NCBI GenBank assembly: GCA_951799445.1
Contig: OX637289.1
Coordinates: 29,636,245-29,700,244, forward strand
Source of the DNA: Pseudisothecium myosuroides
Taxonomy: Eukaryota; Streptophyta; Bryopsida; Hypnales; Lembophyllaceae
Reading direction: 5' to 3'
DNA length: 64,000 nt
Shown here: positions 4,777 through 58,739 of the stretch, piece after piece
Layout of the letters: every line of letters begins with the position of its first letter
How positions within the stretch are numbered: position 1 is the stretch's first letter
The notes under the pieces: generated by a model
What the model was told of the DNA's origin: nothing
Database searches by the model: none
Seen by the model: only the letters and a program-made list of their open reading frames with translations
Made by a program: the position numbers and the translations under genes

Positions 4777-5518
4777 ATAGAACCTCGCTACGGTGGAACA
4801 CCTCAAACCGTCAATATTAGCAATTCAATATAGTTGGAGGCACCTTTTCCTGAAACTAATATTTTTGAAGTAACAGGAAGTGAAAATCATGAGTATTCAA
4901 AAAAAAAAATTTAAAATCAAATGAGGTATGTAATTTCTATGATTTTTTCAAAGTGCTGGCTTCTTAGACCATTGAAACTGTCATATAGGTGGACCCTAAA
5001 CCAAAATCTGCAAAAATTAGTAGTCAGCAAATGAAAGTTAAGTATGTGTCCTTCAAATGCGTCAACAAATCAAAGTTAAACATTTGAAAGACACATTAAT
5101 GGAAAGCTAGGGACAGATTTAGTGGCAATTTAGGGTACAAGAATGAGAACAAGGATGCTTTTGGATGTTTCTACATTAAGCTAATACAAACAACATAAAT
5201 GCAATGACCATCCCTAATGTAATATAATGACTCTAGCCTAGCACTATAAGATAAACTACCCCATTCCAAACCAAATGGGAGCAAGCCCATGGTGGGCTAA
5301 ATTATGTTCCGTCCCTAATGTAATATAGTTAGTCCAGCCCCAGCTTTATAAGATAAACTATCCCATTCCAGCCCAAATGGGAGCAAGCACATTGTGGGCT
5401 AAATTATATTGATAGTATACATTTCAGAACTTAAATGTAACATAATTTACCCCCCAATGGGCTTGCTCCCATTTGGTCCAAAATGGAGTAGTTTACCTTA
5501 CTTTTAGAAAGGTTCTAT
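4777..5518. mobile_element. Possible pogo-like (Tc1/mariner) miniature element
   Basis: The left end reads TAGAACCTCGCTACGGTGG and the right end AAAGGTTCTATTATAGTGGG, so both ends carry the inverted AGAACCT motif next to TA. This resembles the GAACCTC start of pogo/Tigger inverted repeats. A further GAGGTTCTACTATAGTGG end, in the same orientation as the right end, lies at about 25510-25530. The interior is AT-rich and has no transposase. The pairing of the ends is uncertain. Confidence 0.3.
5211..5506. repeat. About 100-bp tandem repeat plus an inverted third copy
   Basis: Two direct units of about 100 bp (from about 5211 and about 5312) share CCCTAATGTAATATA, ATAAGATAAACTA, CCCATTCCA and AAATGGGAGCAAGC. 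A third, partial unit at about 5440-5506 is in reverse orientation (GCTTGCTCCCATTTGG, then TAGTTTACCTTA). The copies are clearly diverged. Confidence 0.7.
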
Positions 5519-5739: not shown

Positions 5740-6280
5740 AGTTTAAAGTTTCATTTGGGTCAATGGAAATACAAGGCAATGCACTTCGAAGGAGCATATC
5801 TTTTGAGAATATTTTAAAATGATGCCCTTTTGTGCTCAGATGAAAAGTAAAAGAGAGTTGAGAATGTACAATGCCTTGGACAAAATAAAGTAACCTCCAA
5901 TTTTGACGTACAAGAATTTTTTTAAAATTTGACCTTTTTAGACTATTTTTCAAAACTAACCTATTAAATTTATTGTTTTATGCGATCTTGATTAACACAC
6001 CAAATTTAGAATTAAAAAAAAAAAAAATCATTTTTGGTGAACTGTTCTGTGTGTTTTTCATTGTATTATATAATAACTAATTGAAAAATATGGGTGATGA
6101 ATTTTTAAAATTTTATTGCACAAATATTTAAGAAACATCAATGTGTACATCTCAATTTGAGGGAAAAACTACATTATCAAGGAAAATTTTTGCACTTTAG
6201 AGAATTTAATGTGAAGGTGTCACTAATCAATAATTTGTACATTGAATTCTCTGTAGTGGGTGATTGCAAGAAACACTTGT
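5740..6280 (+). repeat. Left arm of the long inverted repeat
   Basis: The core, about 5855-6195, matches the reverse complement of about 24735-25060 at roughly 80-85% by eye. Shared words include CCTATTAAATTTATTGTTTT, TTTTCATTGTATTATATAAT and AAGAAACATCAATGTG. The match ends on the inner side at TTGCAAGAAACACTT (about 6264-6278). Confidence 0.85.
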
Positions 6281-7806
6281 CCTATTTCTTGTCCCCTTGC
6301 ACCTTGACGGGTGGTTTCTGGCTCATAACTTTTGCGTTACTTATCCATTTGGCATGAAATTTGGAAGGAAGGTAGATGCTATAGTTGCCAACCTTCGGTA
6401 TTTTTTTCAGATTTTTAAAAATTATTTTACTATTTTTAACCTGCCCCTGATTGGGTGTCTACCTTGGCCATTTTAGAGGTTTTTAGTCCTATTTTCGACC
6501 AAAAAATGCGAATTCGAAGCCACAAAGTGGAGGTGTTGGAGTTCTCATATCATTAGAGGGCTTCATGAAGAGTTTTCAAGAGAACGGTAAGGTATCGCTT
6601 GTGCACATTGGGCCAAAGTGCCCTCCCTTTGTGCAGATGTCAGGACTAGGGGATAAATTCCCTAAAGTGATTCTTTGGTGCATTGTGAGCGCAAGGTAGT
6701 CCCCCAAAATGGCTTTTTTTTGGGTAATTTTTTGGAATTGTATGTGAATTACTAAAAATGAAAACGTGGACAGGCCTGTTTTTGGCGATCTCTGGCTTCT
6801 GCACTCTCGCGAAGCGCTGCGTAGTCCTTCGTAGTCCTGCATAGTACCCATACCGCATCCAACTCCTGGGAACGCATTAACTGCTTTGTGTGAACACCTG
6901 TCACGTTCTGTTAAGATAGTTGAGCTGCCCGGTTGTCGTCGGAAACTCCGCGCCGCCATTCTCTCCGGACTTCGCGTTGCGGCGAGAGAGTTGTTTGTCG
7001 CACCTCATGCCGATCGGGCTCCTCGTCGAAGTCCGGAGCCCATGCAACGTCGTGGTCAGCCGCCGTCGCGGCTTGGACCTGCGACGAGGCGGGCGACCGA
7101 GATGGCGGAGGAGGAGGAACGCTGGCGGCGTTGGAGGAAGAAACAACAGCGCTTCAGGGCTAGGCTTAGGGAGAGGCATGAGGCAGAATTCGAGGACGAA
7201 ACGCGCGTAGAGGAGGACGACAGCGGCCGCTCTGAGAGTACCTTGAGGAGGAGGGCAGCGGAATTCTCGAGGGACCTTATTTGGCACTTGGAGAGGCTCG
7301 GGGACGAAGAGATCAGGGCGGCAGTTCTTGATATTGTCTTCAAAAACGAGACTGTACGCATGCTCATGCCAGACTATTATCCTTCTCCGGAGGATGCGCG
7401 AGCGCAGCGGGACATTTTGCAGAACATTCGTCTTGACTTACAGGCCATGAAGATTCCGCATTGCAGCGGAATGTTGGCACGGAAGCGGTCGATACTCGAA
7501 GCCGTCATCTCGGACTTGGAGATCGATTCAAGTCGGTTCCCTCGGATTCTGGGAATTCAGAGGCAAAATGTCGTTTTCGCTGCGCGGAGGCTGTCTGACG
7601 CAGCAGCAACGGAGACATCGTCACGTTTCAAAGTGCCTGGGCGGAAGAAACGTGACGGTGGCATTCCTGAGGAAGTGCGGGAACTGGTGATCGGGTGGTG
7701 GACGGACGAGACTAGGGTCTCCCCGGATCGCAAACAAGTTCAAAAAAAAAGGCTTGGACGACGGCTGTACGACAGGCACGCAGCTCATCTTCTCCTTAAA
7801 AGTCAG

Positions 7807-9340
7807 GCATTACTTTCTGGCCCTACCTGTCCTAAATTTGTTTGTCATGAGATTATTTCCTGCTGCGCTGATTTCCTCACTGATTACCACGATGTCACAT
7901 TCCCTCGTCGTCCATAAATCGGGACGAAGGACATTCACAAACGGACCCATGCTCTGTTTCCGCGTTTTGGTTTTACATTGAGGACTCAAGTTTTCTCGCA
8001 GTAGGTCCACTACATGCCGGAGGGTCAATGTCTTGCCGACCTCTGTCGTTTCATGCAATGCAATTGTACTCCCAATCTGCCTACCTACTGCGTGTTGCGC
8101 ATTCGTCCCCTATATGGCAGTTTGTGTCTTAATTCCTCCCCTACGATCATGCTTTCTACTAGCGGGCTCCATGTACTCATATACAACGTCCATGGCTTCA
8201 TTGACCGGCTGCACTATGCAGACGCTGCAACGTCTGTGCAGGGTGCGGCAGTGCTCTCTATTCCAGTAAACGGAGCAAATTCAGCGAAGTCAGATAAGAG
8301 GACTGAGTGCTCCGATCACTGCGAGGGCAGTCTGGATGTGTCCTCGCGCTACTGCATCCGGCCTCGCCGTAGAGAGAGGAAATTCCGGCCGCAGTGTTTC
8401 CCAAGGCGTATCGACCACTAACGGAGCAAGATGACTCCTACCGACGCTGCATTGGACCGCAGTACCGTCCGCAATCCTGGATTGCAGTTCGACACTGTCC
8501 TGGAAGCTGGGTCCAACACCACATTCGGCCACAGCATAGTACTCGTGTTGTGTTTTGTGACTATGTGTGGCCCGTTCGCTGCGGCGTCTTCCTCAGTGGG
8601 TTCGCTTTGCGAGCTGCGGAGGAAAACATCCGGACGAGTCCTCCTCCTCCTAGTACTGACGCCGCGACCGGCACTGGTGCTTCACGGACTCAGCAGAATT
8701 TTGACGCGCTTCTTCCGCGTCGCACTCAACGACTTCTTGCGGTATTAGGGTGGCAAAGGACTCACAGGAACAGTCCTGTGCAGCACTTTCTCATGCGCAC
8801 GTCATACTCCTTGTACCCCGACGCCTGCATAGGAGTGATCCGCGTCCCGGATGCTGTCCTCCTGGTCCTCGACACCACTCAGCGTACCGTCGTAGGAGTG
8901 CGCACATGTGACGGTTAGCGGCGGACGACGTCGACGAGTACTGAAACATGCAGCCATAGGGCGGGCGTAGCATTACGCATGACCCTCAGGTGGTGCGAAC
9001 TTCCGGCCACAATACTCCATGTCCGTTGCCACTACGTTATCGCTAGTACTTGTAGTCCTTCAAGTGTGCAGTAGTACTCTGCGGGCGTCCTCTATACGAC
9101 TTCTAGCACTCCGTATCTGCACTGCGTGTCCTTCTAGCGACATCCAGGAGTGGTGACCAGCGGGTAGAGGACTCTTCCGCCTCGTTGTTCAGCGTCCTAC
9201 CGCTATTATTGCGAGTCCTTCAAGGCCTGTAGTACCCTGCGGGCGTCCTCGATAGTGCTTCCAGTACTTCATTTTTGCAGTGCCGGTCCTTCTAGCGCCA
9301 TCCACAAGTGCTGACAGCGACTGATGGTATTCCTGTGTAG
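7807..9340 (+). other. Large intron of the transposase-like gene
   Basis: No conserved coding segment was found between the exon ending HLLLKSQ and the exon beginning VDMYKHF. Its open frames (for example 8394-8918) look random. The 3' part holds the 9049-9313 tandem repeat. Confidence 0.45.
9049..9313. repeat. Diverged direct repeat, about 158-bp period
   Basis: Two units (about 9049-9155 and about 9207-9313) share GTCCTTCAAG, AGTACYCTGCGGGCGTCCTC, TCCTTCTAGCG and CATCCA. The AGTCCT/AGTACT-rich style recurs at about 12028-12260, 22265-22420 and 24640-24680, always inside the GC-rich block. Confidence 0.7.
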
Positions 9341-12027
9341 GTGGACATGTACAAGCATTTCGTAGAAGCTAATCCGCGGTGCCCCATTATGTTGCGATCC
9401 TTCATCAAGTTACGGCCTTTCTTCGTCATCAAGTGCAAGGAACGCAACGTCTGCTGCTGCAGGTACCACATTCAGGTGCTTTTCCTCCTCGAGGCTCTGA
9501 ATGCTTTCCGTGACCCAAGAAACGGGGCGCACACTTTATTCCGTTGCATTTGCCATTGCGTAGTTTGTGGTTCCAACATGGAGGGCATCTGCCACGTCGG
9601 TGAAAGCCGATTCTCTGGTGTGACGTCGATGTGGATGTCCATCCTCTGCGAGAAAGCGGAGCATTCCGAATTCCACAATCTCAGGTACGATTTCAGCCCA
9701 TTTTTGCGCTGCTCACACGCCCATGATGACCTCCGACATGCCACATCCTTCATTTTCTGCTTGCTTACGACGATCACAATGCTCCGTTCTAGAATTCGGA
9801 AACCCAGCCCCCACAGTCTGATAGCTGCGGACCATCCGTGCCAGTGATCTGTCTTCCTCTTCCTTGATGTGCATGGTCGTCGTGGCATTGTACGTGTCTT
9901 CCTCCTGTGATTGTAGGAGTTGTCGTCTTGCTGCAGCGCCAGTCCCGCAGTTCCGAGTCAAGCGACATTGTCGAAACCTCACGTGAAGTTATCTTTCTCT
10001 GCGCAGCTGTTTGACAGGAGCTTGCAACGCGTGTGGAGTGCACAAGTTTCCGCTTTGCCCGCAGGAAAGAATTGAAGGACCCGAAAGGACTATAAAGTGG
10101 AAGAAATTCCAGTAGAAAACGGACCCCCCATCGGCTGATGGGAACGCCCGTAAACGCATCACCGAGGTCACCTTGAGTACTTCGTTTTCTGCTTTCATGG
10201 ACTTCTTTAAGCCCACGTTGGAGTGGTTCGTCTACCACAACTTCTGTGCAAGGTGGCAGAGCGAGCAAGCCAAGCTAGCGAAGGAGTTTTTGCCTAGAAC
10301 TGTCGTCTTGACCCACATTGATTTTGCAGAGAATTACACCTTCCAGGTGAAGAACGAAATCTAGTCCATGTATTACCATTCCATGCAGATAACTATTATG
10401 GTGCAAGTTGTGTATCGCGTGCAGGAGGCTGAAGATGCAAATGACGGCAATCCGGAACTCATTCGAGAAACTCATTACTGGATATCCGACGACAAGGCAC
10501 ACGACACACTTTTTGTGCAGCATTGCCTGCTCCGTCATTGGCAGTGGCTGCAGTCGCACGGTTGCTGCCCAGACACCCACATCGTCTTCAGCGACGGATG
10601 CTCCGCACAATTCAAAGGTGCACGCTCCCTGTATTTTATTGCTAGGTACGTGTCACTCTTCCAATGCCATGCACTCGATGCTTCTGCTCACACTCTTCTG
10701 ACAGCATGTACCACGTATAGGCGAAAGAGAGAGCGGCTTCGCAGCCTCCTTGCCAACATACAGCGATGCCACCCTAGTAACACGTGAACTTGTGACAGTA
10801 CCTCTCAGCACAGAACACGTCGCCGTTCGCCACCTGTGCCCTGACAAAGTGCATTGTGGGTTCTGTTTGTCGGCCAGATACCCGTCTCTAACGGGAGGTT
10901 GCAAAATGGTATGGAATTTTTTTGGCTCCAGGCACGGCAAGGGCGAGTGGGATGGTGCCGGCGTAGTTGTCAAGAGGGCGCTCCAGTCTGAGCAGCTGCT
11001 CAATCCAAACCAACCACTGCGAGACGCACGCGAGTGTGTCACGTTCCTCGACGCCACTATGGCTGGGCAGGTTCCGGTCCGCGGTGGACGCATGAGGTGA
11101 GGCCCGGCACCACCGCGCTCTGACCGCCTGAAGCGCTGCTGCCCAGCAGTCGTCACATTGTCGGCGGAGTCCTGGAATCATGAACCACGTCCACAAATTT
11201 AGCAGGCTAGGTTTCGGCGTAGTTTCTATTCTGTAATTTCATATACTCTTCCGGTGTTTTTCATGCAGGTCATTCCGGTACTTTCATCTTGTTGGAGTTG
11301 ACGAGGTGGACCGCGCTTGTTCACATGCTTGTCGGAAGATTGCAGGATCCTCCAGATTGCACTCGGTCTTTGCTCCAGACTCTAGAGACCCCATGAAGAT
11401 TTTAATGCGAACATTGTCTTGCATGTTTGGACCGTGTTTGGAGGAAGACTTCGGCCACTATGAGCAACAGGCGTACGTCAAAACATGGAAGGTACACAAA
11501 ATTGAGCCACTGAACGTCCATTACGCACAGGAAGTACTCGAAGCCGGCGATCCGGAAGATGAGGAGAACTGGAAGTATGAGCAGGACGAAGATCGCATGG
11601 CAGACCTAGTGCAGCTGGGAGATAACTTTGGTATACCTGCCGAAGCAAACAACAACGAAGGCGTCTCCTATTACGTTTTGCAGTGCTAGAAGGCGAAGCA
11701 TTGTGTGGAGGAGGACTTCGAGTGCCCTTGGGGTGGAAAATTCAAGCGAGGAGACTTAATCATTACTGGAACTTACTACCAAAAGTGGGGCAGGGCGACA
11801 TCACAAAACTACGTGTACTTGAAGGACTCTAGGCCCGCCCATATTGACGCTGACATAGTCCTAGCTTGTAAATTCCAAATGATCCCGAGAGAGCATAGAG
11901 TGAAAGGAGGGGATCCTGTGTACTCCTTTCCACCTGAGAGTGTCAATGTAATTGCATGTGCATTGGAGGAATACCAGGATTGCCATTGACGGCTTCGTTA
12001 TTTCTATATTCCCTCACATGCACTGCT

Positions 12028-12206
12028 CCCAAAGTACCCGTGACAATCCTTACAGTACTCTAGTCGCACTCCGATAGGACTGGCGTTAGCCCGTAGTCCT
12101 CTCAAAGGGCCCGAGCTTCCTAAGTGCCCGTGCCAGTCCTTGCAGTACTCTAGTCGCAGTCCCATAGGACTGTGGCGTCAGCCCGTAGTCCTCTCAGAGG
12201 GCCCGA
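12028..12206. repeat. Tandem repeat, about 88-bp unit, two copies
   Basis: Two adjacent units share AGTACTCTAGTCGCA, GATAGGACTG/CATAGGACTG, GCCCGTAGTCCTCTCA and GGGCCCGAG. They lie just downstream of the transposase-like gene and upstream (plus sense) of the convergent SET gene, so they may mark a shared 3' region or a subterminal binding array. Confidence 0.75.
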
Positions 12207-13719
12207 GGGACTAAGCAAGCATGCTTGCGGGACTGGAAACGAGTCCTACGAGACGGGTCCTCCATAGGATGTCATCCTTGAAGTGCCAGACATACATGGA
12301 AGGCACAGAGCAGTATAAGCAAACATTGCAGTCGTATTCATAAAATACGGATAATTACATAGAGTACGAAAAGGCCATTGCAAGCGCATACTGCGAGGTG
12401 CAATGATGTGCATACCTACATTTCCCTAGAATACCTGATGCCTCAGTCCCGAAGTCCTAATGACCGAGTTCCTACATGACTACTCCGCTGCAATCATCCA
12501 TGCCTAAGGAAGTGGCTCCTTATTTATGTTTCCACTCACTATTGTAGTTACACAGATACTGCAGGCAAGGCAATCTTTGCTCTGCACAAAACACTACCAC
12601 ATGCACATTGAAAGGGTTCCATGTCATTTCCGCTTTCTAAGACAATTGTGGAACTTCCGTAGCAAGTGAACTCCACGCCATAATCCTAGGTGAGCTCTTC
12701 TCCGGCCGCAATGTCTCTGTTAGCAAAAAAAGCAACCTACATTGAAGTCGTAGTGAGAAACGTCAGAAACGCATCGTGAAAATGAAAACTGACGTACAGT
12801 CACGTTTCTGAGATCGGTAGTCAGTGCAGCGGTAGATTCACCTGGTAAAGCGTTGGCAGACAAGTGCCCATCCACACAGGCATCTCCATGACATTTGCAT
12901 CCCCGCACCTGCAAAAGAAGGGAAGGTCAGGTCACAATGCACTAGTCCGGCGTTAAACTGCACACCCACTTCACCATGCACGTCTTACCTATGATTCATC
13001 CACCGCGCCACATTCGTGCACTCCGAGGCATCTATACATAACAACTCCTTATCGCTTTTGAAGGCCTCCGACTGCTAGTGCGCATCCAAGAGAATGCAGA
13101 AAGTTGAACCAGTTTCCCGTCGGAACAACTCAGCATTCGTCCTCTCCTGCGTATTCGAACAGAAAGGTGCCTTGTGGGCACGCTTCAAGCGTTCGGATGC
13201 CCCATCCTTTCTCATTGCTCACCCAAAACACCTGCATTGGACAAGAGCATGAGGACCTCCATGGCAGCGGGAACGTGGACATTGACCGTTGACAGAGACG
13301 GGTATTAAAAAAAAAGCGAAATACCTCGAAAGGTTTCGTCACTCCTTGGACGACTCTATTGCCACAGTCTCCAGCGCACCCGCATGCTTTTGAACACTCC
13401 AGTATGTACTTCCGCTCCACATGACCTGCACAGGCTCCCTTCCAATACCCCTTGCACAGGAATTCTCCACGGCAGTGGACTAAGTGCTCGTATCCTCCAT
13501 CCCTGCGCTTCAAATACTGCACGACCAACACACAAGCGGTTTAGAAACAGCAATATGTGGACTGCGCACATATAGGGAAACATCGTGGAAGAAGAAACGT
13601 CTGAAAACGGGCAGTGCGCCATTCAAAACATTAAAAGAACATCATGCAAGGCGAGGCGGAGGCAACGTCTATTACCTCTTTCACGTGTTCGAGACGCAGT
13701 GTGGGAGTACGGAAACTTA

Positions 13720-16700
13720 GAATAAAGAAAAATAGCATAGGAATAGGATAGAAGTAAGGCAAAAATTTCAAAACTTTGGTAAGAAGTAAGAAATTAGATC
13801 TGGATACAGATAAATTCCGGATAGTTAGAAACCGAGATTCCAGATCCGTTAAACCGGGTTCTTTCGAGAGCAGGAACGGATCTTAAATCCGAGTTAGGTC
13901 GGATCGGAACGAGCTACGGAATAGGTATCCGACCTACGCCGCTAGGGAACCGCTACAGGAACGGACCTCTTTCCGTTCGCCAAGGGGAACGGTCGGCAGC
14001 TCGACTAGTACTTAAGCCGTCGCCAGACCTAATCTTCCTCATTCTTCACTTTGCTGATTGTCTTGCGCATTTAGCTGAGAGAAAGAGTGGCGAGTTAGAG
14101 ATCGCGACAGGGAGAGAAAGGTGAGGTCGGTGCCGATTGCACCGGATTTAGTGGTCGGTGTCGGTAAACTATGGTAGAGTCCAGCAATCCGATAGCGCGT
14201 CGGTTTTCAGTCACAGCTCGGATAGTTAGACCGGCTATTCCCACCGACCCAACTCACCGGAAGGAGTTAGAGACATACCTGACCCGGATGGGGTGCGTAG
14301 GTTTGATCCACCGACCGTAGAATGTTAAGGACCCAGAGATGCTGGAGCAGCTGATTTCAAGGGTCCCAAATCAGTTTGAGTTGACCGTGAGAGGCCAACC
14401 CGGAGCATGGACAGCGGACGTTTGGTCTAACGTGTACGAGTTTGAGGAGAATGGATCCGGGCTAGGTTCTCGGGTAGAAAAGTACAGCATAGGAAAGTTC
14501 CGTAATCCGGTTACCACTAAGGACGGATACCCCGTGAGTGACTGTAAGGACGCTAGGCAGAAACGGGTGTTGGAATTTTTGATTCCGATCCTGTATCCGG
14601 AAAAGCCCACCCGAGTTACGGTTACGGTGGCCAACACTATCTTTGGGGCTTTAGAAGATAAGGTAGTCCACTGGGGGAAAGTCCTAGCAGGTATAGTGAA
14701 GAAACTAGTGTCGCACGTAGGGAAGGGGAAGCCGAGTCTTCTCAGTCCGTATCTGTTTCACCTGTACCACCATCAGGAGGTGCTGACTGGTGAAGAGGTG
14801 GTGATTTACAACACCGGATTAGAAATAGTGAAGTATGGTCTCACGCACGAAATTCCACCGAATACTCCAATTGAGGGAGAGGAGGAGGAAGAAGAAGAAG
14901 ACAAAGACGATGAAGAAGAACCGCAGCAGTAGGACCTGGTCGACAAACGGGAGAAGAGAAGGAAGTCGACCGATCCGAACTCAAGGGTGGGGCAATTGAC
15001 CCCGGAACAAGGAGAGCCGAGTCAAGCCCTGGGACCGGAACTGCAGTCAGACTTTTTCGAAGTCGAACATCAGTGGATGGAGGAGGCCGAGCACATGCAT
15101 TTTGGCATGTCGGATATGATCCTGGGGATTGCTGCGGAGCTGAAGGTGGAGCCGGAAGATACTATAAAGGAGATCCGGCGACGGCCAAACCCGGATCTGC
15201 TTCATGAGAAGGACGAGCGGATCAAGAGCGTGGAGAAAGAAAGGGATGACCTGTTAGATCGGGTGAATTGGGCGGAGACGGATGCCGCAGCTGCACGGCA
15301 AAAGGATTCGGAAGCTCTCCAACTCGTCCACAATTTGACCGCGTTGGTGGAGCAGCCCTCAGAAGCTATGATCAAGTCCCGACTCTTCAGCAATCAGTTG
15401 AGTGGTACAGGCCACTTATCCGGGTCCAAGGTGGTAACTATCTTGGTGGATTTCTAGGCCTGGATGGAAGGAATTTTGAAGGAGATGGCGAACCTGTTGG
15501 GGCACCTCGACCCAAACAAGCCCTTGGACTTCACCCACTTTCCGGAGCTGCCCAACGTCGACTTGTTGAAGACGCCCCAGAAGCCGGGGCCAGGGACCAT
15601 TCTACAGCCATCCCCAAGACCTACTTCAAGCCAGACACGAATTCAAACGACGGTCACAACGGAGGGCCAAACAAGGAGTATCCAGTCAATTCCGGTAGTG
15701 AAAGGGGGTTCCGTCCCAACAACTGGAACTTCCGTCCGGAGCGACTTAATCCAACGGATCGGGGCCTTCACGAACCCAGCTCGGACCAATCCGACGGACT
15801 TTCCGCACATGCAGAAAGAGTCGCCAAAGCGGGATACAGCACCTATCCTCCTAGATGATTCGCCGGAGAAGGCAGTACGCAGGGAGATGATCGAAGAGTC
15901 CAAGAAGGGGGAATTCACTTCCGGGGATGAGACGGCCTCGGATGACAATCCTCCACCAATCAAGCGGAAGATTCCGACCCAGGCTGCTACAAAGACCACC
16001 CCACCGAAACCGAACAGGAAGCCACTTGCAGGGCCGAGTAGCAGCGCGAAGAAATCAAAGCGAGGGAGGTAGTTAGTTAACAGGTTTGCAGTTAAGTTAG
16101 GATTTTTGAATCTGGAGCGGATTTTCCGTGCGTGGGGCCCGGTTCAGGATTCTTAGGAGTAGTTGACTTTGAACTTTCCGGATATTACGGTTAGTTACTA
16201 ATTGGTCACCTAGATTTTCAGGTGTTGTTTTTTTGGCTTTTTGTTTGGGCTTTTAAAGGGAGGGCAGCATGTTGCCCTCTCATTCCATCCTTGCCCATTT
16301 TATGTGCATTAGTTTATGTTCATTCTTCTTTTCTCTAATCTGAGCCACTAAGTGGACATTCGGATTTCTGGCTATGAGCGCATTTTCTGATACTTTTTGC
16401 GAAGTGTGAAGGTGTGAGAGAGGAATGGTGAGGGTGAATCCGGGTCAAGGGTGTTTTAGAGCTGATTTGAGCGAGTAAGTTTGTGAGGAAGTTTGGCTAG
16501 ACTTGTGAGTAAGGATTTGTGCGTAGTGCCTTTAATTTGCCGTAACGGTGATCCGGTTTTAAGGAGTGGTGCGGATGCGAGTCCGAAATCCAGGGAGGGT
16601 TCCGAGCGGAGATAAGCGACCGCCAGCAGAAAATCCCCACTCACCGGAAGGTCTGCCAACCGTAGGATCAATCTGATAGATAGGCGCATGAATCTCTGTC

Positions 16701-17150
16701 AGACTCGGATATCTTGACCTGTCGTTGTAGTAAAGACGGAAGGATATAGTTCTGAGTGATTTGTTTCCGGGCAAGCTAGTCGGGGAATTGTGAGGACTAT
16801 TACTTTCTCTTGTCTATGATAAAAATCATGTAAGTACTGTGTAGTGTAAGTTTATTATAGAAGAATTAGGAGTCTATGAGTGGTGAGTTCCTACCCCTCT
16901 AAAAGATCAAAAGCGAATACCCTGAGGGTAAAACAGGGAGATATAAAACCAGTCTGTGTTGTGAAACCCGGAATCCGGATCAAATCGGAAACCGGATAGG
17001 GAAATACCCAGATTGGAATCCGGAAGATGTTTGTGTCGAAAAGTAAATAGAAAGGGAAAGAGGTTTCGCTTGGGTTTTGGGTTGTTTTGGAAATACCCGG
17101 ATAAACCTTAGCTTGCCAAAACATACTAGGATCTCCTGGGACGATATTCC
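13720..17150 (+). mobile_element. Retroelement-like insertion with a gag-type ORF, boundaries approximate
   Basis: Between two exons of the SET gene lies about 3.4 kb of different character: a leader rich in CCGGAT/GGATCCG-like words, one long plus-strand ORF (14171-16072), a long 3' non-coding part and a purine-rich tract (AAAGGGAGGGCAG, about 16255-16268). No reverse transcriptase, integrase or clear long terminal repeat pair was seen. It could be a gag-only non-autonomous LTR element or another element class. Confidence 0.45.
14171..16072 (+). pseudogene. Gag-like ORF of the intronic insertion, three internal TAG stops
   Basis: One reading frame runs from ATG 14171 to TAG 16070 (634 codons), interrupted only by TAG at 14318-14320, 14930-14932 and 15455-15457. 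The first third is a globular domain (LEQLISRVPNQFELTVRG, GYPVSDCKDARQKRVLEFLI, TVTVANTIFGALEDKV), followed by an acidic run (EEEEEEEDKDDEEE). The middle is coiled-coil-like (HEKDERIKSVEKERDDLLDR). The C-terminal third is Pro/Thr/Lys-rich and ends in a basic tail (SSAKKSKRGR). This layout fits a capsid-like retroelement protein, but I cannot name a family. All internal stops are amber and can derive from CAG. Confidence 0.6.
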
Positions 17151-17789
17151 GTGTCATCTTATCATCTTTTTGGTGTTAAGGATACTTATGACTATATCAC
17201 GCACACAACACGCAACAACCCCCCGGCTGTATACGCGCAGCCTCCAGATACGGCAACGCACTGGCAACGAGTGTTCTCCTCGGTGCAAGAACCCCTACAT
17301 GTGCACCCAAGGTTTGTGTCCACACATGACTTGATTAAATCCCGAGGCAACGAGTGGTGCAGCAGTGGATTCCGTATGTATTGGTACGATGACGCGTCCC
17401 AGTATGGGGCTTCACCTACGCCACCATGTCTAGTGCAATGCACCGGCACGGACTCGTTACCACGGGAGCAGTCGAAGAGGACGCATTCCTGTTATGATAA
17501 TGGCAGAAAACACAGCAATAGACTTACACTTGTGCTCATTGCAAATGATCTCTCGGGCCATTCTCGAAGACAATATGCGCAGTTAGTAACAGTATAGTGA
17601 CGCAGACACAAGAATGAAGAAAACAATTCTGCAGTACATAAGGAGGGAAGTGCGCACAAAGTGAGCACCATTTTACATAAGCACTAAAGAGCGAGAAATA
17701 CACCCCTGTCCAACGTTGGCGGGGAAAATACCACACTGCGAACGACAAGAAATCGCACTTCTACCAATTTTTAACTGCACTCATCATAC

Positions 17790-18000
17790 TGAGGGCCCCT
17801 GAAGCAAGCGGATACTTGAACGACCAACCTTGCGGAAAGGACGGCCGTGCTCCAAATCTCTTTGGGGGCAATCGTCGCGAGCAGCAGGAACGAAGACTGA
17901 GGGCCCCTGAAGCAAGCGGATACTTGAACGACCGCACCTGCGATCAGGGCGGCCATGCTCCAAATCTCTTCGGGGGCGATCCTCAAGCGCAGCACCAACG
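17790..18000. repeat. 108-bp tandem duplication
   Basis: Two copies start GAGGGCCCCTGAAGCAAGCG (about 17792 and about 17900) and share TACTTGAACGACC and CATGCTCCAAATCTCTT/CGTGCTCCAAATCTCTT. The 108-bp period is a multiple of three and stays open on the minus strand as a 36-residue repeat (RRDLEHGRP, RSSIRLLQGPSV), so it may be a coding repeat in the N-terminal region of the minus-strand SET gene. Coding status is unproven. Confidence 0.75.
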
Positions 18001-18030
18001 CACTGCACTTGGAATAAGGGCTCAGAGATA

Positions 18031-19400
18031 TCATCCCTTCTTGTGTACCTTTGTCTTTCTCGGTGGTACAAAAGCCTCGGTCCTCTCTGCAGACGACTTT
18101 GGTGCTTGCTTCAACGATCTCAGGTGCCTTGTTCCTGCGCCCGGTGGACAGTCTTGCTTCTTCGGGGAACGACCCTTAACGCCCTTACTTGTGACCTGCG
18201 AGGTGTCGTTTTTCTCAGCAGAACCCGGTGCCCTGTCTTCGTCGGCAGCACTCCTCTCAGCAGCCGCGGCTCCAGAAATCGCAGCAGCGTTCTTCTTGTC
18301 TGCCACATCGGAAAAGGGTAAAACAGCGCAGTCAGTAACAATACATGCAAACTCCCAAAGCCAAACGGAGGCGAACCAAAGACGTGGCCAATGCTGCAGT
18401 GCTGTAGTGGTACCTGAGACTGCACTCCTGCTCCTGTACACGACGGGGCTAACGACCTGCCGTGGTGCATCCGGCGAGACGCACCCCGCTCCCTGGGATC
18501 CCTTTGCTTCCTCCTCAAAGAATTCCGTGTAAGGGTCAGTCGCACATGCAATAACCTTAGCAGCCTCGGCAGAAACGGGACACTAACTCTGTGATGGGGT
18601 TGCAGGTTTCGCAGGCAAAGTGCCACACACCTTATACAGCCGCAAGCATACAATAAAGCAACCCCATCAGCAGTGATAATGTCAGTGTCTGCAATTGAAA
18701 ACTGCTAGAAACACTCTTGGCAAGGAATACACACCCACCTGCGCAGAATCCTCCACCGGCAATGCGTCCAGGACGGATTGCTCCTCTGCAGTGAGCAGCG
18801 CCTCCGCCTGAACAGCGCCTGTGACCGTACCGGACTCCTGTAGTTGTGAATTCTTCTCGTCCGCCAGACTCCGGTGGGTGTCCCGGCCCGCAGTTGGCTG
18901 CATTGCCTCCCCCGCGTGACCGTCGTCTGGTACCCTCGCATTGCTGGGAGTCTTCGACTGAGTGGACATAGCACTATAACAAAACTTGGTAAAAAAAACT
19001 GCGCAGAGATTTGACTACGGTTTTTTTATCCACGCTTTTGTGCGCGTGCGCGTAGTGGACAAAATACCTTTCCAATAGTATATTACATGCTTCCAAATTC
19101 CAAAAATTGCAGTGGAAAACTGCAAAAAACACTATTTGTCCACTACGCGCACGTGCACAAAAGCGTGGATAAAAAAACCGTAGTCGAATCTCTGTGCGGG
19201 TTTTTTTTACCAAGTTTTGTTATAGTGTAGGCATCATAGAATTCCTACGCCCGGGGAAGTCTTCCGTCAAGCTCTGTGACGCCTGCTGCCCAACACTCCG
19301 CGTAGCACCGTCGAGCCCGTCGGTGATGCACTTGGACACCGTACTCCCAGAAGCGGAAGCTGTGGGCGCTCCCTGACCCAACTTATTCAACACTGGCCCA
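18031..19400 (-). pseudogene. Disordered N-terminal exons of the SET gene, split by a CACTA miniature
   Basis: Minus-strand open segments of low-complexity, Ala/Ser/Lys-rich protein lie directly 5' of the pre-SET exon: 19400-19228 (…EDFPGRRNSMMP), 18971-18701 (MSTQSKTPSNARVPDDGHAG…, donor CAG|GTGGGT) and about 18320-18040 (KKNAAAISGAAAAERSAADE, PPRKTKVHKKG). Removing the 256-bp CACTA miniature and one 3-bp duplication rejoins the first two segments in the same frame, so they were one exon. SUVR proteins have long disordered N-termini, which fits, but splicing to the pre-SET exon is inferred. No WIYLD domain could be identified with confidence. Confidence 0.5.
18972..19227. mobile_element. CACTA-type miniature transposon, 256-bp hairpin, TSD TAG
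   Basis: The element starts CACTATAACAAAACTTGGTA and ends TACCAAGTTTTGTTATAGTG. Its arms are inverted for about 100 bp each (shared internal words include ATCCACGCTTTTGTGC and GTAGTGGACAAA). It is flanked by TAG on both sides (18969-18971 and 19228-19230), the 3-bp duplication expected of CACTA/EnSpm elements. It has no coding capacity and would need a transposase supplied in trans. It interrupts an open frame on the minus strand and introduces a stop almost immediately. Confidence 0.9.
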
Positions 19401-19841
19401 TGCACACGGAGTGAGAAGAAAGACGAGAAGGAGCACAAGACAAAGGGGTCAAAGCATAACATGTTTACTTGAAGCCAGTCTACAACTTGAGAGTGCTCTA
19501 CAGGCCACTGACGTGTTCTCTACACACGTACCAGCCCTTGCAATTGCGGAGCAGCGCTTCCAGCAAAGAGGACTGGCAGTGCACATTGACTGAAGACGTA
19601 AAGGCACTTGTAAAAGGTCGTTCGTGGACTGATGACATGGTTACTCCGGCACGCCTACGAGTGCTGTCTACTGTACATGACGTAATTGACCTACATATGC
19701 TACCGTGAACACCTACAGCACTCCTTCCGTCATGAAGGAGGAGCCAGTAAAAACGGAAGTGAAGGATTGCAGTAAGAGGACAGCTACACAGCGAGAAGGC
19801 ACTTTGAAAATCAACCCTCCATGGCGAGAAAGAGGCGACCG

Positions 19842-22180
19842 TCACTTACGAGGGCCTTTGTCAATGATTGGCGCAGGAGGCGTGCAGAGGGAGTCCGGAT
19901 TCAGTCCTTCCAGAGCTGCAGTAACATGATCCCGGGTTGCAACGCTGCGGTCCTCCTCTACGGTTGCAGAGAAGCCAAACGCTTTCAGCCACATTGGATG
20001 AACCCGCCCGCAGCCCGGTGATGCGCAGTCGGAGTGGTCCCTGAACCATGCCGCGGCACACCAAGGATGGCAAAGGTGCTTGCAACTGCAGATCAGGGTA
20101 TGCCATAAGGGAAAGTGTTCTAAGCACAGAGCACAAAGTGCAGGAGCTGCCATAACCCCAAAGTCAGGCTCCTCATCCATGTTCCCATGACCGAGAGGGA
20201 GCGGATTCGGGTGCATCAAGCACGCAATTTCACCGGACTGCAAGGAGGTCTGCTCTAACAGCAGCGCATCCAGGTAACGGCGGGCGCCCTCCAACCTCAG
20301 TGAGACTTCCTGCTGCCTAGCCTGGATGACGCGCCGTTTCGCCTGCTGAGCCTTTAGCTCGGTCAAACTGTTTCAAAGCATATCGTGCATAGGTGTTTCA
20401 CTGAGAACCTGCAGCACCACCTCCTGGCAGCTGTCACCCCCAAGCAGTTCGTATTTTTCTCCGTACTTGGCGAATTGCTTGATGATGTGCTCCACCATTC
20501 CAGATTGGAAATCAGAAACCCTCTTGCAGTCCTCAGCCTGCTGCTCCACTACCGCCAAGTCCAGTCCGAAACTGCCGACCTTGTCTTCTACTTGGAAGAC
20601 TGCAGCGTCCATGTCCACGTTCCTGCATCACACGCAGCGGCAATAAGGAGATGACGAGCATCGACACGAGCCTTACCAGAATGCCGATATTGAAGGCAAG
20701 GGATGGCAACATGTTTTGGTAGCGGCGTATGCAAAGGCCGGACGGCGGAAAAAGTACTTGGCAGCGAGCATGTCAAAATCAAGGGCCGGCGCGAGGGACC
20801 GTCCGACTCCGGGCTTCGTATCCTCAATCAGCATTGGGATGGAGTGCGGCTTCTTGAAGTCCTGCGGCGACAGTGGGTTCCATTGTCGGCTGTCCATGTC
20901 TTTAAGGAACTCCTTCAGATCCTGTTGTATGTCGATTTCCGTGCCTACCACCGCCTTCAGCCGCTTGAGCCAAGTCCTCACTCTGATCACGTAATTTGCG
21001 TGCCGGAGCTGGTTAGTCTCCGTTGCAAATTCAGCCCAGTCCACCTGCTCTTGTCTCGCACTTTTGGAAAACCCACCCAATAGCCAACTCCTTGGCGACG
21101 TGGTTGGGCGCAAATTCTTTTTGGTAGCAGATGCAGTATAGTCGTTCCACTTCCCTCCGGTCCTCCAAAGACAATTTGTCACCTAAACTGTACCCGTTCC
21201 TACCCCGCTCAGGCCTGAAGACTGCCTCCACATCTTCTGGCGGGATGTGTTTGCCGATTTTGAGCTTGTGCGGATTATGTCCGACGTTGCTTAGGCTGAA
21301 TTTGCTGCAGAAGTCTTCCTTCGTCATGCGCTTTGGCGGCAATTTAGGGGCGGTCTTCAGGTCTTCAAGGGCCTTCCTGCATTCCGGCTCCGAGAAAACC
21401 ATCTTCTGTCCCTTCTTGTCTTTCCTCGCTCTCTGCACAGAATCACAGGAATATGAGAACGCAGATTGAAGCCAGTCACAGAGCGGGGCGACAGCAACGA
21501 AGAGGAAAACAAAGAAATTTACCTTTTGCCCTGAAAGCTTCTCCTCGGAATCGACACTGTCGCCTTCCTCCACGGTGTGGTACGTGGAGTCGCAGTTGTC
21601 ATCCTTCCTCGGCTTCTTCCCCTTCGACTGTTGCATACGTCCGGCCAGTGGGGACTTTGCAGCGGCCTTGGTGCCTTCGGAGGTCCCTCTGCGTTTGTCG
21701 CCTATGGGCGTGACATTGCGCGCCTGAGTCCCCTCCTTCCTCTTTCTCGACGTCGCCGCCGGAGCACGTCTAGGAGTGGAGCCCGTGGCCTCGGAGTCTG
21801 AGCCCTCGACGCCGTGAACGGCTTCCTCCACAGAAGCCGACCTGCCAGTACTCTCTCGTCCTCTCCGGTCCTGTACTTTCCACCACCCCGCAATCTCTTC
21901 CCCCTCCTCGAAGACAGCCTTTGTCGTTGCCCGTCTTGTTCTTGGAGAGCCAGGCGGAGGTGTCGCTGACTTGTGCACGGACCCGAAAGGTTTGTACCCG
22001 GATTTGGTGCTCCTCGCCTGAGCAGTCTTGGAGAACGTCTCGGGTGTCCTGTCATCCTCTTCGTCAGAGAGGTCAAGCCGATCCATGGGTCGTTGGTTTT
22101 CCGTGGGACCCTTGCTAGCCTTCACATGAGCATTGTCGTTGCGGACGAACTTCCGCTTTGCACATTTGGATGCCTCCATG
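19842..22180 (-). pseudogene. Basic nuclear-type protein with C-terminal RING/PHD-like zinc finger
   Basis: Three exons, 22180-21523, 21432-20677 and 20622-19842, with GT-AG introns and matching phases give about 731 codons once one lost base is allowed for. The N-terminal 200 residues are disordered and rich in Lys/Arg/Ser/Thr. The middle is globular (KMVFSEPECRKALEDLKT, HNPHKLKIGKHIPPEDVEAV, FRRPAFAYAATKTCCHPL). A coiled-coil stretch (about 20590-20280) follows, and the end is a zinc finger: CALC, 11 residues, CSCKHLCHPWC, then CASPGC. Defects: a one-base frameshift near 21066-21085 and an in-frame TGA at 20373-20375 (probably CGA to TGA). No enzymatic function can be assigned. Similar proteins lie next to transposases in other plant mobile elements, as far as I recall; a DNA- or chromatin-binding accessory role is a guess. 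M at 22180 is chosen because it follows a possible splice acceptor. Confidence 0.6.
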
Positions 22181-22264
22181 ACCGTGAGCTCCCGGTCTGA
22201 AGGAAAGTACGAAACCGCAAAGGAAAGCTTCAATAAACGATTGGTGCTGTTCAGTCAACCTACA

Positions 22265-22930
22265 GTTCTACGAATGAGTACTTCGAGTACTCGAAGCTGC
22301 TCCTAGTCCGGAGTACTACAGCACTGTCTAGGGACTACGTGCGGTCATTGAGTGGTCGTGAGGACTACAAATGCCACTCCGTAGTACTCCCTAGAGCGTC
22401 AGTAGGACCTTGCCTTGCAGTGCTTGGGATATTGGAGGGATAGCCGGTGCGGCAGCAGTATTGCTGTAGCGCCGACAGTTCCACACGCGTCCTGAGCATG
22501 CGCGAAATTGGAGACTGCAGTACATCTGCCTAAACCGCAGGTATTGCGCGTAGTGATCCACGGATTACTTAGTTCCTGCACTTGTCCTATTCCAACCTGG
22601 CGAGCACTACAAGTAGCAGCGAGCAGTCCTGACGCTTGCGAAGGAGTGAACCCACTGACTGCAGCACTTTCTGATGCGCACAGTGAAGATCCTAACCCGC
22701 GGAACTTAAGCGCTGGATAGTACCGTGCAGTCCTATGGCACTCTCGTAGTCCACGAAGTATCACCTAAATCTGTGGTAGGCGTCACGAGGAGGACGCCGA
22801 ATCGTGCAAACATGTGGACTACGGCGGCCAGAGGACACTCTAAACCCCCAAGTACTGGAAAGAGCTGTACATGCAGCAGGAAGGAGAGGACTCAGACAGT
22901 CCTATGCGCGCATTTGTAAAGAGCGCTACA
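22265..22930. other. Spacer with AGTACT/AGTCCT-type short repeats
   Basis: This stretch upstream of the zinc-finger gene is rich in AGTACTCGAAG, GTAGTACTCC and CAGTCCTATG words like those at 9.05-9.31 and 12.03-12.26 kb. No conserved protein is visible. It may hold the promoter of the minus-strand gene and element-specific repeats. Confidence 0.4.
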
Positions 22931-23192
22931 ACGCACCGAGTAGTGGTGACAGCATGAGTCCACTACACCAGGTAAGCACGCACGTGTGTCACTGAACAAT
23001 ACAAAGTGCACTGTCCTGGATGCAGAGCAGCAGCATGGCCTCACATTCAAACGCCTGCTGTGAAGAGAAGGGCACATGAAGCCAACAGCAGAGCAACATG
23101 ACATCAACATGAAGGCAGAACACGGAAAAAATGTCCCTGAAATCAAAGCTTTACTGAAGTGGTTTGAACATTTCAGACAGAGAAAATGTCTT

Positions 23193-23650
23193 TCACTGGG
23201 ATGCGCAGCGGTGAACTATACCGAGGACTACCTCTTCGTCTATGCAATCTACTTCGGATCGAGCTGCTGTCCTGCCGCATTCCTCTAGAATGCCTTTGCT
23301 TTCAAGCAGCAATTCGTGAACCCTAGCTTTGTAACTAACCCGGGGCTTCTCAAAGACCGGCTTAGACACGGACTCCGGCATAGAGACACCGGCAAATGCG
23401 CAGAGCACCTCTGTCGAACCTGTGCGTCCGTGCTTGCAAACGGTAGACGAGGCAAAATCGTCCTCGAGCCTAGGTCTCCCACGGGCTTCCCTGGATGTGC
23501 TGTTTCCTCAGCGGGAGTGGCCACCGGAGTCCCCTTTGTTCTCAGAGTCCGAGGTTCTCGCTCTACGTCTTTTCCTCCTGGAAAGCGGAGCAGCTCGGAG
23601 TCGTCCCTGCTCCGGCATTGCTGCAGGAGCTTGCGGTCTACCCTAAATAT
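23193..23650 (-). pseudogene. Unrecognised coding remnant
   Basis: A minus-strand frame from about 23650 to 23193 has coding-like composition, with LEDDFASSTVCKHGRTGS, then SYKARVHELLLESKGILEE and SEVDCIDEEVVLGIVHR. It is interrupted by TGA at 23508-23510 (a possible CGA to TGA change). It resembles no family I know. It may be part of another accessory gene of the GC-rich block. Confidence 0.3.
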
Positions 23651-24033
23651 GCCGTAGTCTGTGAAATCGAGTGAAGTAATCTGTTCACATTTGTGAACGG
23701 CAAAGAGGAATTCGCAGCCCAGAAAATGTAACCTAACACCTACCGGAAGAAACTGCAGACTGACGCCGTGGAGAGGACGTCGGCAATCTCTATGCGCTCT
23801 ATAAATTGTTGTTGTCGCGTCCTCTGCACCAAAGCTAAAACCCTAAACCCTGAAGTGGGAAGACTCTCACCAAACAGAAGTGCCCATGCGGAGGGAGTAA
23901 GCTCGCAAAGTACCTTCCGACATTTCTCTACCAAAGCCTAAAAGCTTAGAACCGCGGCCGACCAAAGCTAAAACAAAAGAGTCTCCCACAGCCGACTACA
24001 GCAACTTCGGAAAATCTACAAGGGGAAGCACAG

Positions 24034-24589
24034 TTGACAGGAGGACATCACGGGGCTTGGACAAACCTGAAACACTATGGAAACCACTCGAAGTCCGCAC
24101 TAAATCCGTCGACGGCTGCTCAAATCGCGTCTTCCTTCCTCGCGGCTTCTCTCCTCGCAACCACGGGGTCCTCCTACGCCTTCGCGAAGTCCCTGGCAGT
24201 GCACGCGCGGAAGACTCCTCTCACAAGCAGCCCGCACTACCGGGCGGCCTTCACCTCTTCCTCGCCGCAGCGCCGACGTTTTCCTCCTCCTTTCCACGGC
24301 ACACCAGCGACGCCGACAACACTTCCTTCACAATTCCGGCATCCGCGCACAGAGAATCGGAAGCTGCACTCAGACCGGTGTGGACCCAGAAAAATCGATC
24401 CAGAGTTGGCAGCGGACAAAGACGACAACGGAAAGCCCACGGAAAACCGTCCTCCGTTCCCGAAATCTGTTCATCCTCCCCTGTCCAAATGGATGAATTT
24501 TCTAATGTGAGACGTTGAACGACCCAGTTCAATGCGGCAACTTTAATGCGCTGCAGCCCTGCCCAGCCAGCTGTCGAGAGCGCAGGCAA
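24034..24589. other. GC-rich region open on both strands, coding strand unclear
   Basis: Overlapping open frames on both strands (plus 24034-24518, minus 24589-24100) are rich in Arg, Pro and Ser and resemble no domain. The overlap is probably a composition effect. It may be a 5' exon or promoter of a minus-strand gene. Confidence 0.3.
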
Positions 24590-24689
24590 TCTTGAACTCC
24601 AAACCGACGGTCAGGATTCTCCACGTCCACTGTCGCCCAGTACTTGTAGGACCCGTAGTACTGCCAGTCCTATGGCCTGAAAACGCGTT

Positions 24690-25140
24690 TTTGACGGAAA
24701 AACGTTAAGTGTTTCTTGCAACTACCCTAGTATAAAAAAATTTCTAGGTAATGTGGTTTTTCCTTCAAAATGAAATGTGCACATTGATGTTTCTTAAACA
24801 TTTGCACAATAAAATTATAAAATTTCACCACCCATATTTTTCAATCAATTATTATATAATACAATGAAAAACACACAAAACAATTCACCAAAAATGAAAT
24901 TTTTGTTTTTTTAAATTGAAATTTGGTGTGTTGATCAAGCTTGCATAAAACAATAAATTTAATAGGTTACTCTTGAAAAATCGGTCTAGAAAGGTCAAAT
25001 TTGAAATATATTTTTGTAAGTTGGAATTAGAAGTTACTTTACTTCACCTAGGGCATTATACATGTAAAATTTCACAACATTCCAAGCATTTTTCAATTCA
25101 TGGTGGAGCTTGCAATGCATGGTGGTCATTGAAATGAGAT
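24690..25140 (-). repeat. Right arm of the long inverted repeat
   Basis: This is the reverse complement of the 5740-6280 arm. On the plus strand it reads AAGTGTTTCTTGCAA (24709-24723), CACATTGATGTTTCTTAAAC, ATTATATAATACAATGAAAA and AAACAATAAATTTAATAGG. The transition from GC-rich to AT-rich DNA falls within about 50 bp of its inner end. Confidence 0.85.
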
Positions 25141-56153: not shown

Positions 56154-57024
56154 TACTTCTTGATTTGCAAAGTCATCTAAGACATTCCCAAAAGTTGCAA
56201 TAAACTCTAAATAGACATCTTAACATATGGAATTGGACATAGCAATGCCAATTTTTATTTATTTTTGAGGGAGGAGTTAAAACAACCCCAAAATTGTGAA
56301 AAAATCTAAAAGTGTCCATGATCACACAAACTATTATCCAAGTATATTATTTAGGATAGAAAACATATACAAGTTCTAAGATAATTGAACCCACTACTAG
56401 AAAGTTGTAGAAGATTTAGTACACTATGACTAGTGTGACTTATATCCTTGTGACTAATGTGACTAATGTTGATTATTAATCACATTTGTTACAATGTACC
56501 AAATCTTGTATGATTCTTTAATGTACTAAATCTTCTATAATCAATATTAACTTCACATGTTTGTTTGCAAATTGATCTCAATCATTCAATCATCCAAAAT
56601 TTAAAATAATGCATTCCATTTTACTTTACTTTTATATATTAATATTTATTGCTCTTGTTTTTGTATTTTACTTTTATTTTTGTGTACTACTTTTAGTTTT
56701 ACTATCTATGTATATTATGTTTGAATTCCTTCTTTTACATACTTCTTAATTTTTTGCACTCTTATTATTGTACAAAGCATATATTTTCTTTTGTTTGAGA
56801 TTTTAAGTTTTTGGATTTTTGAGCATGATGGCCTCTTCATCAAACCCTAAAAGATATAAAAACAAAAATTTGAAGAGTTACACACATCATAAACCACGTG
56901 AGTATGCCAAAGTGGAAGGGTGGACACTTTTGCAAAATGACAATCTTTCTAGTGAATTATCATTTAATGGAATTGGATCCGTTGGATGTACTTAATTTAC
57001 TCATCATAAGCAACAACGTCATTT

Positions 57025-57273: not shown

Positions 57274-58739
57274 AGAAGGGCCCCTTCATAATAAACATTT
57301 GCTAATCTTGATGTAGATTTTGATTTATGTTCTATATGCCTTCATTTAACATATGTAGAACAATTCCATTAAATGATAATTCACTAGAAAGATTGTCATT
57401 TTGCAAAAGTGTCCACCCTTCCACTTTGGCATACTCATGTGGTTTATGATGTGTGTAACTCTTCAAATTTTTGTTTTTATATCTTTTAGGGTTTGATGAA
57501 GAGGCCATCATGCTCAAAAATCCAAAAACTTAAAATCTCAAACAAAAGAAAATATATGCTTTGTACAATAATAAGAGTGCAAAAAATTAAGAAGTATGTA
57601 AAAGAAGGAATTCAAACATAATATACATAGATAGTAAAACTAAAAGTCGTACACAAAAATAAAAGTAAAATACAAAAACAAGAGCAATAAATATTAATAT
57701 ATAAAAGTAAAGTAAAATGGAATGCATTATTTTAAATTTTGGATGATTGAATGATTGAGATCAATTTGCAAACAAACATGTGAAGTTAATATTGATTATA
57801 GAAGATTTAGTACATTAAAGAATCATACAAGATTTGGTACATTGTAACAAATGTGATTAATAATCAACATTAGTCACATTAGTCACAAGGATATAAGTCA
57901 CACTAGTCATAGTGTACTAAATCTTCTACAACTTTCTAGTAGTGGGTTCAATTATCTTAGAACTTGTATATGTTTTCTATCCTAAATAATATACTTGGAT
58001 AATAGTTTGTGTGATCATGGACACTTTTAGATTTTTTCACAATTTTGGGGTTGTTTTAACTCCTCCCTCAAAAATAAATAAAAATTGGCATTGCCATGTC
58101 CAATTCCATATGTTAAGATGTCTATTTAGAGTTTATTGCAACTTTTGGGAATGTCTTAGATGACTTTGCAAATCAAGAAGTAGGCGTTGTAGAAGATTTA
58201 GTGCATTGTGACTAAATCTTGGACAAGTTTCTAGTAGGGAATGTAAATTTACTTTGAATTTGTTCATATCTGCTAGTTTGTGTGATCATAGGACACTTTA
58301 AGATTTATTCATAATTCACTAGAAGAAATTTGCATTATTCTTACTGATTTTTTTCATTAATTATAACGCAAATATGTTGAAAATAACTCAAATTTTTAGA
58401 ATTGTAACTAAAATAATGCTAAAATTGCCATTATCCACTATGCACGAACTACTCTATCTCAACCCGCTGAAACAAACTTGAACCAATTACTACTTGTCTT
58501 TTACTACAACTTCCCTACATCATCCACATCTTTATACCATCTCTCTTTCAATAACAAATACAATAAATAAATTAGGTAGCTCAGAGCCCCCCTTTTTGTG
58601 AAGATACATATATATATAATGTAGTGTCACTCAAAATAGCTTTTTAGAGCCTACTATGGGATCCTAATTGAATAAGGAAGAACCACCCAATTCCAATCGG
58701 AAAGTCATGCCCAACGTGTAGGGTGTACTATTTCAAGCC

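Follow-up and report, generated by a model that had tools for sequence, protein, structure and literature searches.

Extent and ends of the giant element

The window analyzed here is a stretch of 64,000 nucleotides of the moss Pseudisothecium myosuroides (contig OX637289.1, positions 29,636,245 to 29,700,244), lying on the contig labelled C3 in an assembly of 388 Mb and 222 contigs. It harbors a block of 18,470 bp (6258..24727) that carries a transposase-like gene with an HGKG motif, a gene of the SUVR type with pre-SET, SET and post-SET domains, and a RING-like gene. This block is very probably a dead member of a giant-transposon family that has terminal inverted repeats (TIRs), an integrase-like transposase, 4-bp target duplications and, in one clade, a SET gene of the SUVR1/2/4 type; the combined claim of this identity and of an enzymatic role conserved in the SET gene is likely, if held somewhat less firmly. 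The original prediction, made from the sequence letters, had described a GC-rich block, and base composition bears this out. The further idea that the block forms one mobile unit is supported by TIRs, an exact 4-bp duplication, intact insertion sites and the repeated pairing of SET and transposase genes.

The decayed copy is delimited by its ends, its duplication and the extent of its similarity to a sister copy on contig C7, which spans positions 6257 to 24728, with none beyond. The left TIR of 31 nt (6258..6288, plus strand) pairs with the right one (24697..24727, minus strand) at 81% complementarity, 2 of the 20 outer bases being different. The left end reads GGGTGATTGCAAGAAACACTT and the right end, inverted, reads GGGTAGTTGCAAGAAACACTT; the target duplication TAGT abuts both, with an exact match between its left (6254..6257) and right (24728..24731) copies. 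End pairs with at most 3 mismatches in 20 bases and an exact duplication were absent from ten shuffled 30-kb windows and occurred twice in the real window, the second pair lying within the hairpin described below and having a palindromic flank.

The long inverted repeat thought to bracket the block does exist, as two 328-bp arms that are 85% identical (5864..6191, plus strand, and 24736..25063, minus strand), and both lie outside the element. As element ends they are ruled out by the TIR/TAGT junctions and by the limits of the C7 similarity. Because this similarity, the TIRs and TAGT all stop short of the arms, these are best read as the halves of an AT-rich hairpin that was interrupted by insertion of the giant element.

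Sister copies and nested insertions

Intact insertion sites together with target duplications show, at the level of sequence comparison, that the family has moved in the past. A comparison with empty sites, as called for by the original prediction, recovered two intact paralogous insertion sites. The sister copy on C7 (C7:13778305-13823196) is about 92% identical to the window (blocks 90-94%) and is split by a second giant element of 25,624 bp (C7:13782372-13807995), which has its own TIRs and an exact CCCT duplication. The intact counterpart of this insertion site, a single CCCT, is found in the window at 10627..10630 in the alignment with C7. The HGKG transposase, the SUVR-type SET gene and the RING gene are present alike in the window element and in this second element. 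Moreover, a copy of the latter on C10 (C10:1266239-1306424; 97-99% identical, duplication CGAA) is itself split by a third element of 14,708 bp (C10:1282798-1297505; duplication CAAT), whose intact site is legible in the C7 copy. The third element contains a transposase and a RING gene and gave no SET match.

TIRs with a target duplication were thus identified in five elements, four of them with an exact 4-bp duplication and one, the outer C7 sister copy, with 3 of 4 bases (TTTT versus TTCT). Proven ends enclose the SET gene in four copies: that of the window, the outer and the nested one on C7, and the D-type one on C10 (D being one of the sublineages of the SET tree below). No element ends were found in two C11 regions, nor in the fetched pieces of a C9 copy.

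Gene content of the window copy

The transposase-like gene of the original prediction proved to have homologues, and its exons were mapped by tblastn with the query P0001 on the plus strand at 9350..9682, 10008..10658 (with the DFAENY and SDGC motifs and two in-frame stops), 10873..11097 (with the HGKGEWDGAG motif) and 11270..11968 (one in-frame stop). An open frame of 361 codons on the same strand (6835..7917) is probably the N-terminal part of this gene; relatives of the frame lie upstream of the transposase in C7 (two), C8, C10 and one C11 region. The predicted pre-SET/SET gene is likewise present, on the minus strand at 12581..13540, where domain scan and tree identify a stop-interrupted SUVR-type gene with pre-SET, SET and post-SET parts. 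The third gene, also on the minus strand, consists of several open frames (19842..22254) and was identified from these and from a domain scan as coding for a coiled-coil and RING-like protein. It had been called RING/PHD-like, of which the RING half stands: zf-RING_2 was matched in a relative with an E-value of 2.4e-5 and 25.0 bits, below the Pfam cut-off of 27.3, and the match is weak in the window. Pfam scans of the pieces given reported no PHD finger. In the nested C7 element, the RING-like gene is represented by single frames of 526 and 599 aa.

The window copy is dead, as it carries stops and two later insertions, both absent at the same place in the C7 copy. One of these, 3.5 kb long (13700..17209), has TG...CA at its ends and contains a gag-like frame, while a comparison of the outermost 1,200 bases on its two sides revealed no long terminal repeat; the other is a CACTA-type miniature inverted-repeat transposable element of about 256 bp with a TAG duplication (18972..19227). 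By eye, several of the stops look like CAG-to-TAG changes. The short repeats reported inside the block are direct repeat pairs, located by a repeat scan at 9071..9315, 12025..12207 and 17788..18000 (the last of 105 nt).

Some features of the window lie outside the element. A cluster of direct and inverted repeats of about 100 nt occupies 5208-5500, directly left of the hairpin, and like stretches occur in two other regions (L002 and L006). An 822-bp inverted repeat (56154-56975 and 57361-58182), 99.6% identical with a spacer of about 385 bp, may be a young hairpin or an inverted pair. Finally, frames flanking the element resemble, as read by eye, a LysM receptor-like kinase and a PYR/PYL-type receptor.

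Identity of the transposase

The HGKG transposase has homologues, none of them assigned to a named family; 26 of 27 matches reach E ≤1.1e-27, the best 5e-118. Scans of the window and its relatives gave no match to a Pfam family for it, its profile had no sequence match in the PDB, and no relatives of P0001 were found in viral contigs. Conserved acidic residues sit in the DFAENY, SDGC and HGKGEWDG motifs, and the core is predicted to adopt a DDE/RNase H fold similar to that of retroviral integrases. Mutator elements (MULEs) are characterized by a MULE transposase domain and 9-11 bp duplications, and HarbingerS elements by a Harbinger-type transposase and 3-bp duplications; the present family departs from both in its lack of a Pfam transposase match and in its 4-bp duplications. 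Sola elements have 4-bp target duplications and a DDD catalytic triad. The family described here agrees with Sola in the length of the duplication, the comparison being one of length and not of sequence.

Pairing of SET and transposase genes across the genome

The locus lists used here are lower bounds; one transposase list comprises 150 of 266 matches, and 139 transposase rows of one list were classified by hand. A SET-domain scan of the genome gave at least 64 matches. In five SET regions picked before any genome-wide transposase search, a transposase was present in all five. For the wider count, 129 SUVR/SUVH-like matches were reduced, with one start per locus or part, to 62 typed and finally 59 merged loci, and these were compared with at least 152 transposase loci. 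A transposase lies no more than 20 kb away from 44 of the 59 listed SUVR/SUVH-like loci. With a limit of 40 kb and convergent orientation required, 46 loci qualify, namely 17 of the 21 on C11 and 29 of the 38 on other contigs, so that the pairing seen in the window recurs at other loci in the same convergent layout. By chance, a given locus would be expected to have such a partner in 0.8% of cases, a value that rises to 4.6% on the enriched contig C11. A count based on PF00856, a set that takes in other SET classes, found a transposase within 20 kb at 32 of 61 listed loci, 29 of them convergent.

These figures bear on the simplest objection, namely that transposons merely inserted by chance near an expanded SUVR family of the host; in its favor, the SET forms a gene of its own and few elements have proven ends. 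This is highly improbable, since 46 of the 59 listed loci share one orientation and order and the SET lies inside proven ends in the four kinds of copy named above; it is already contradicted by the nested C7 insertion, which carries its own SET.

Contig C11 (16.9 Mb, 4.4% of the assembly) harbors 39 of the 152 listed transposase loci and 21 of the 59 listed SUVR/SUVH-like loci; that it is a sex chromosome is a guess. Nesting of elements was observed in two of the five fetched regions. The C11 load and the nesting fit a settling in heterochromatin, yet any silenced element may show the same. Separately, transposases with equal or near-equal scores and uninterrupted 651-aa frames were noted at C10:371042, C105:391146, C6:29637582, C49:401569 and C217:98651. 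They have no SET match nearby among the matches listed and possibly represent a young SET-less lineage.

Origin and phylogeny of the SET gene

A SET tree was reconstructed from 23 element copies, five host genes (C1:47.56, C1:49.48, C7:9.55, C7:21.3 and C8:1.44 Mb) and 24 of 52 database proteins, with intron translations cut out by hand. A branch supported at 97/96 parts the SUVR-type rows from two SUVH rows and a SUVR3-like row, the names of the host rows being our reading. Seven rows from flowering plants are united in one clade with the two SUVR genes of the host (95/99). In line with what the original prediction would lead one to look for, the transposase-adjacent copies fall outside this clade, as the sublineages A and D (95/88) and the sublineages B and C, which are mixed with 17 database proteins (100/97); they may make one clade or two. 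In a C8 copy, SET (64.8 bits) and Pre-SET (41.4 bits) both exceed the Pfam cut-offs, and the post-SET cysteines are seen. The catalytic motifs, including NHRC and LTWDY, are mostly retained in element SETs. Their closest solved relatives are histone H3K9 (lysine 9 of histone H3) enzymes, and the sequence matches include a SETMAR chain.

A transposase tree of nine SET-bearing and four SET-less rows separates the two sets (95/91). Among the SET-less rows, only the C10 inner element has known ends, and the others are so labelled from the absence of a nearby SET among the matches listed; long branches among these rows call for caution. Sublineages A and D (92/90) and B and C (100/100) group again, with database proteins within each, and the transposase and SET trees agree in their main split. 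The simplest reading, which is short of proof, is a single old capture followed by joint descent of the SET and the transposase. The captured copy was probably genomic, because an intron located after NHR is common to the element SETs and the host gene C1:49.48.

The agreement of the two trees in the main split, together with the fixed convergent layout beside the transposase, would also suit a SET protein that acts on the transposition machinery and not on chromatin, with the transposase or the RING protein, for example, as its methylation substrate. This is quite unlikely, considering that the closest solved relatives are histone H3K9 enzymes and that SET-less relatives moved too, as the CAAT duplication of the C10 inner element attests. 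The RING protein, which the SET-less relative encodes as well, more likely belongs to the core machinery of transposition or targeting.

Selection on the SET gene and traces of silencing

Ratios of nonsynonymous to synonymous substitution rates (dN/dS) were obtained by a plain pairwise count (NG86) on 393-912 nt of the gene. They range from 0.31 to 0.59 between the subgroups of C, from 0.38 to 0.52 within them, and from 0.32 to 0.47 between D and its C2 relative. The SET thus appears constrained between sublineages and drifting among recent copies, which is the usual pattern of transposon genes. A SET captured long ago and since carried as a passenger, without benefit to the element, would account for the stops that have decayed this gene in many copies and for dN/dS values near or above one among recent D copies. 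It is nevertheless unlikely in view of the low ratios between the C subgroups and between D and its relative, and of the retention of the SET in four sublineages of one genome.

Differences between C and T in sister copies (the C7 and C10 copies; L009-L030, L050, L051) are about two to five times commoner at CG and CHG sites than at CHH sites (Fisher test of CHG versus CHH, p 1e-15 and 5e-14). DNA that was methylated at CG and CHG should show such a bias, which would be a fossil trace of plant-type methylation. Since a SET-less pair is alike, the bias supports silencing of the family but gives no indication that the SET takes part in it.

Possible role of the SET gene

H3K9 methylation is a main brake on plant transposons. 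It is therefore puzzling that a transposon should retain an enzyme that writes a silencing-type mark, a tool normally turned against transposons. In the explanation that we favor, one transposon clade would have acquired an H3K9 methyltransferase of the SUVR1/2/4 type from a plant gene and carried it in active form since its common ancestor, the captured SET being maintained by purifying selection. The active SET may write H3K9 methylation in trans on the element's own copies and their landing sites, by which the silenced family would settle in and tolerate heterochromatin, accumulating on the repeat-rich chromosome C11 and doing less harm to the host. We give this explanation as a whole a probability of about 0.35. 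Self-directed heterochromatin formation, taken by itself, is tentatively the most likely use of the enzyme, ahead of all rivals.

Several observations weigh against this explanation. Ends are established for five elements only, one of them with 3 of 4 duplicated bases, and a candidate element on C8 (13119-30570 in region coordinates, flanked by GCGC) was rejected, as its ends lie inside a longer inverted repeat and GCGC is self-complementary. Thirteen of the 59 listed SUVR/SUVH-like loci have no convergent transposase, and only five of those are clear host genes. In approximately unbiased (AU) tests, neither a single element clade (p 0.28) nor a grouping of A and D with host genes (p 0.29) is rejected. 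The window copy is nonfunctional as read, with three stops in the transposase exons and at least two in the SET, and the SET of the C7 sister copy is likewise interrupted by a stop. dN/dS ranges from 0.81 to 2.76 among the other, near-identical D copies and from 0.40 to 1.04 within B. The SET-less pair has the same CG and CHG bias, so the data reveal no influence of the SET on silencing. Finally, the sole WIYLD match in the genome adjoins a host SUVR gene, in a search with a profile that failed to detect the other host SUVR gene, and the element enzyme may therefore be without the normal SUVR targeting.

The last point is what an anti-silencing role would lead one to expect, in which a SUVR-like protein devoid of a targeting domain competes for the substrate or partners of host SUVR proteins and weakens the silencing of the family. 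No WIYLD was detected at element loci by the same profile, with the limit just given, and transposons that counter silencing are known, such as Vandal and TET-bearing elements (PMC12730594). This alternative is possible, if rather doubtful: the mostly retained catalytic motifs are needless for a pure decoy and would favor an active enzyme, and SET-bearing copies decay at CG and CHG sites as SET-less ones do.

Self-silencing by an active enzyme and disturbance of a host enzyme thus lead to a testable question, i.e. whether these elements gain from silencing and placing themselves or from interfering with the host. SET-bearing and SET-less relatives in one genome, even nested in each other, offer a built-in control. 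In addition, genome annotations may miscount transposon-borne SUVR genes as an expansion of the host family, 46 of the 59 listed loci being located beside a transposase here.

Comparison with known systems

SETMAR is a SET domain joined to a mariner transposase in primates. It resembles the present family in uniting SET and transposase; there, however, a host gene absorbed a transposon, whereas here transposons absorbed and spread a host gene. The SUVR1/2/4 proteins of land plants share with the element SETs the pre-SET/SET/post-SET architecture, the NHRC and LTWDY motifs and an intron position found in a host gene. The element SETs differ in being transposon-borne, in forming separate branches and in showing no WIYLD at their loci with a profile that missed one host SUVR gene. 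In Arabidopsis, SUVR4 converts H3K9me1 to higher states and binds ubiquitin via WIYLD (PMC7218100).

Among transposons, HarbingerS and oomycete MuDR elements (Kojima and Jurka 2014, cited in PMC12730594) are similarly DNA transposons with a SET-domain lysine methyltransferase, which in their case acts on histones. Unlike them, the moss family has a transposase without Pfam match, a 4-bp duplication, a SET of the land-plant SUVR type, a length of 15-26 kb and a land plant as host. In the giant Sola-1 of Ectocarpus (21.5 kb; PMC12477816), a ParB-like/DNA methyltransferase gene occupies the opposite strand. This element is comparable in its giant size and in an epigenetic enzyme transcribed against the transposase, but the enzyme here is a histone and not a DNA methyltransferase, and the likeness to Sola rests on description and not on sequence. 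DNA transposons of fungi that encode a TET/JBP dioxygenase (PMC12730594) are further lineages that retain a chromatin or DNA modifier, theirs being a mark-removing enzyme associated with other transposases.

In the literature searched on giant and methyltransferase-bearing transposons, HarbingerS, Sola and moss genomes, mostly at the level of titles and abstracts and with Repbase Reports and most subscription papers outside its scope, no plant case and no SUVR-type SET in a transposon were found, and a search for HGKG with "transposase" retrieved no paper. As far as this literature goes, the moss family joins the known transposons that carry a chromatin or DNA modifier, and is new in its host group, its SET class, its Pfam-less transposase and the evidence of long upkeep of the captured gene.

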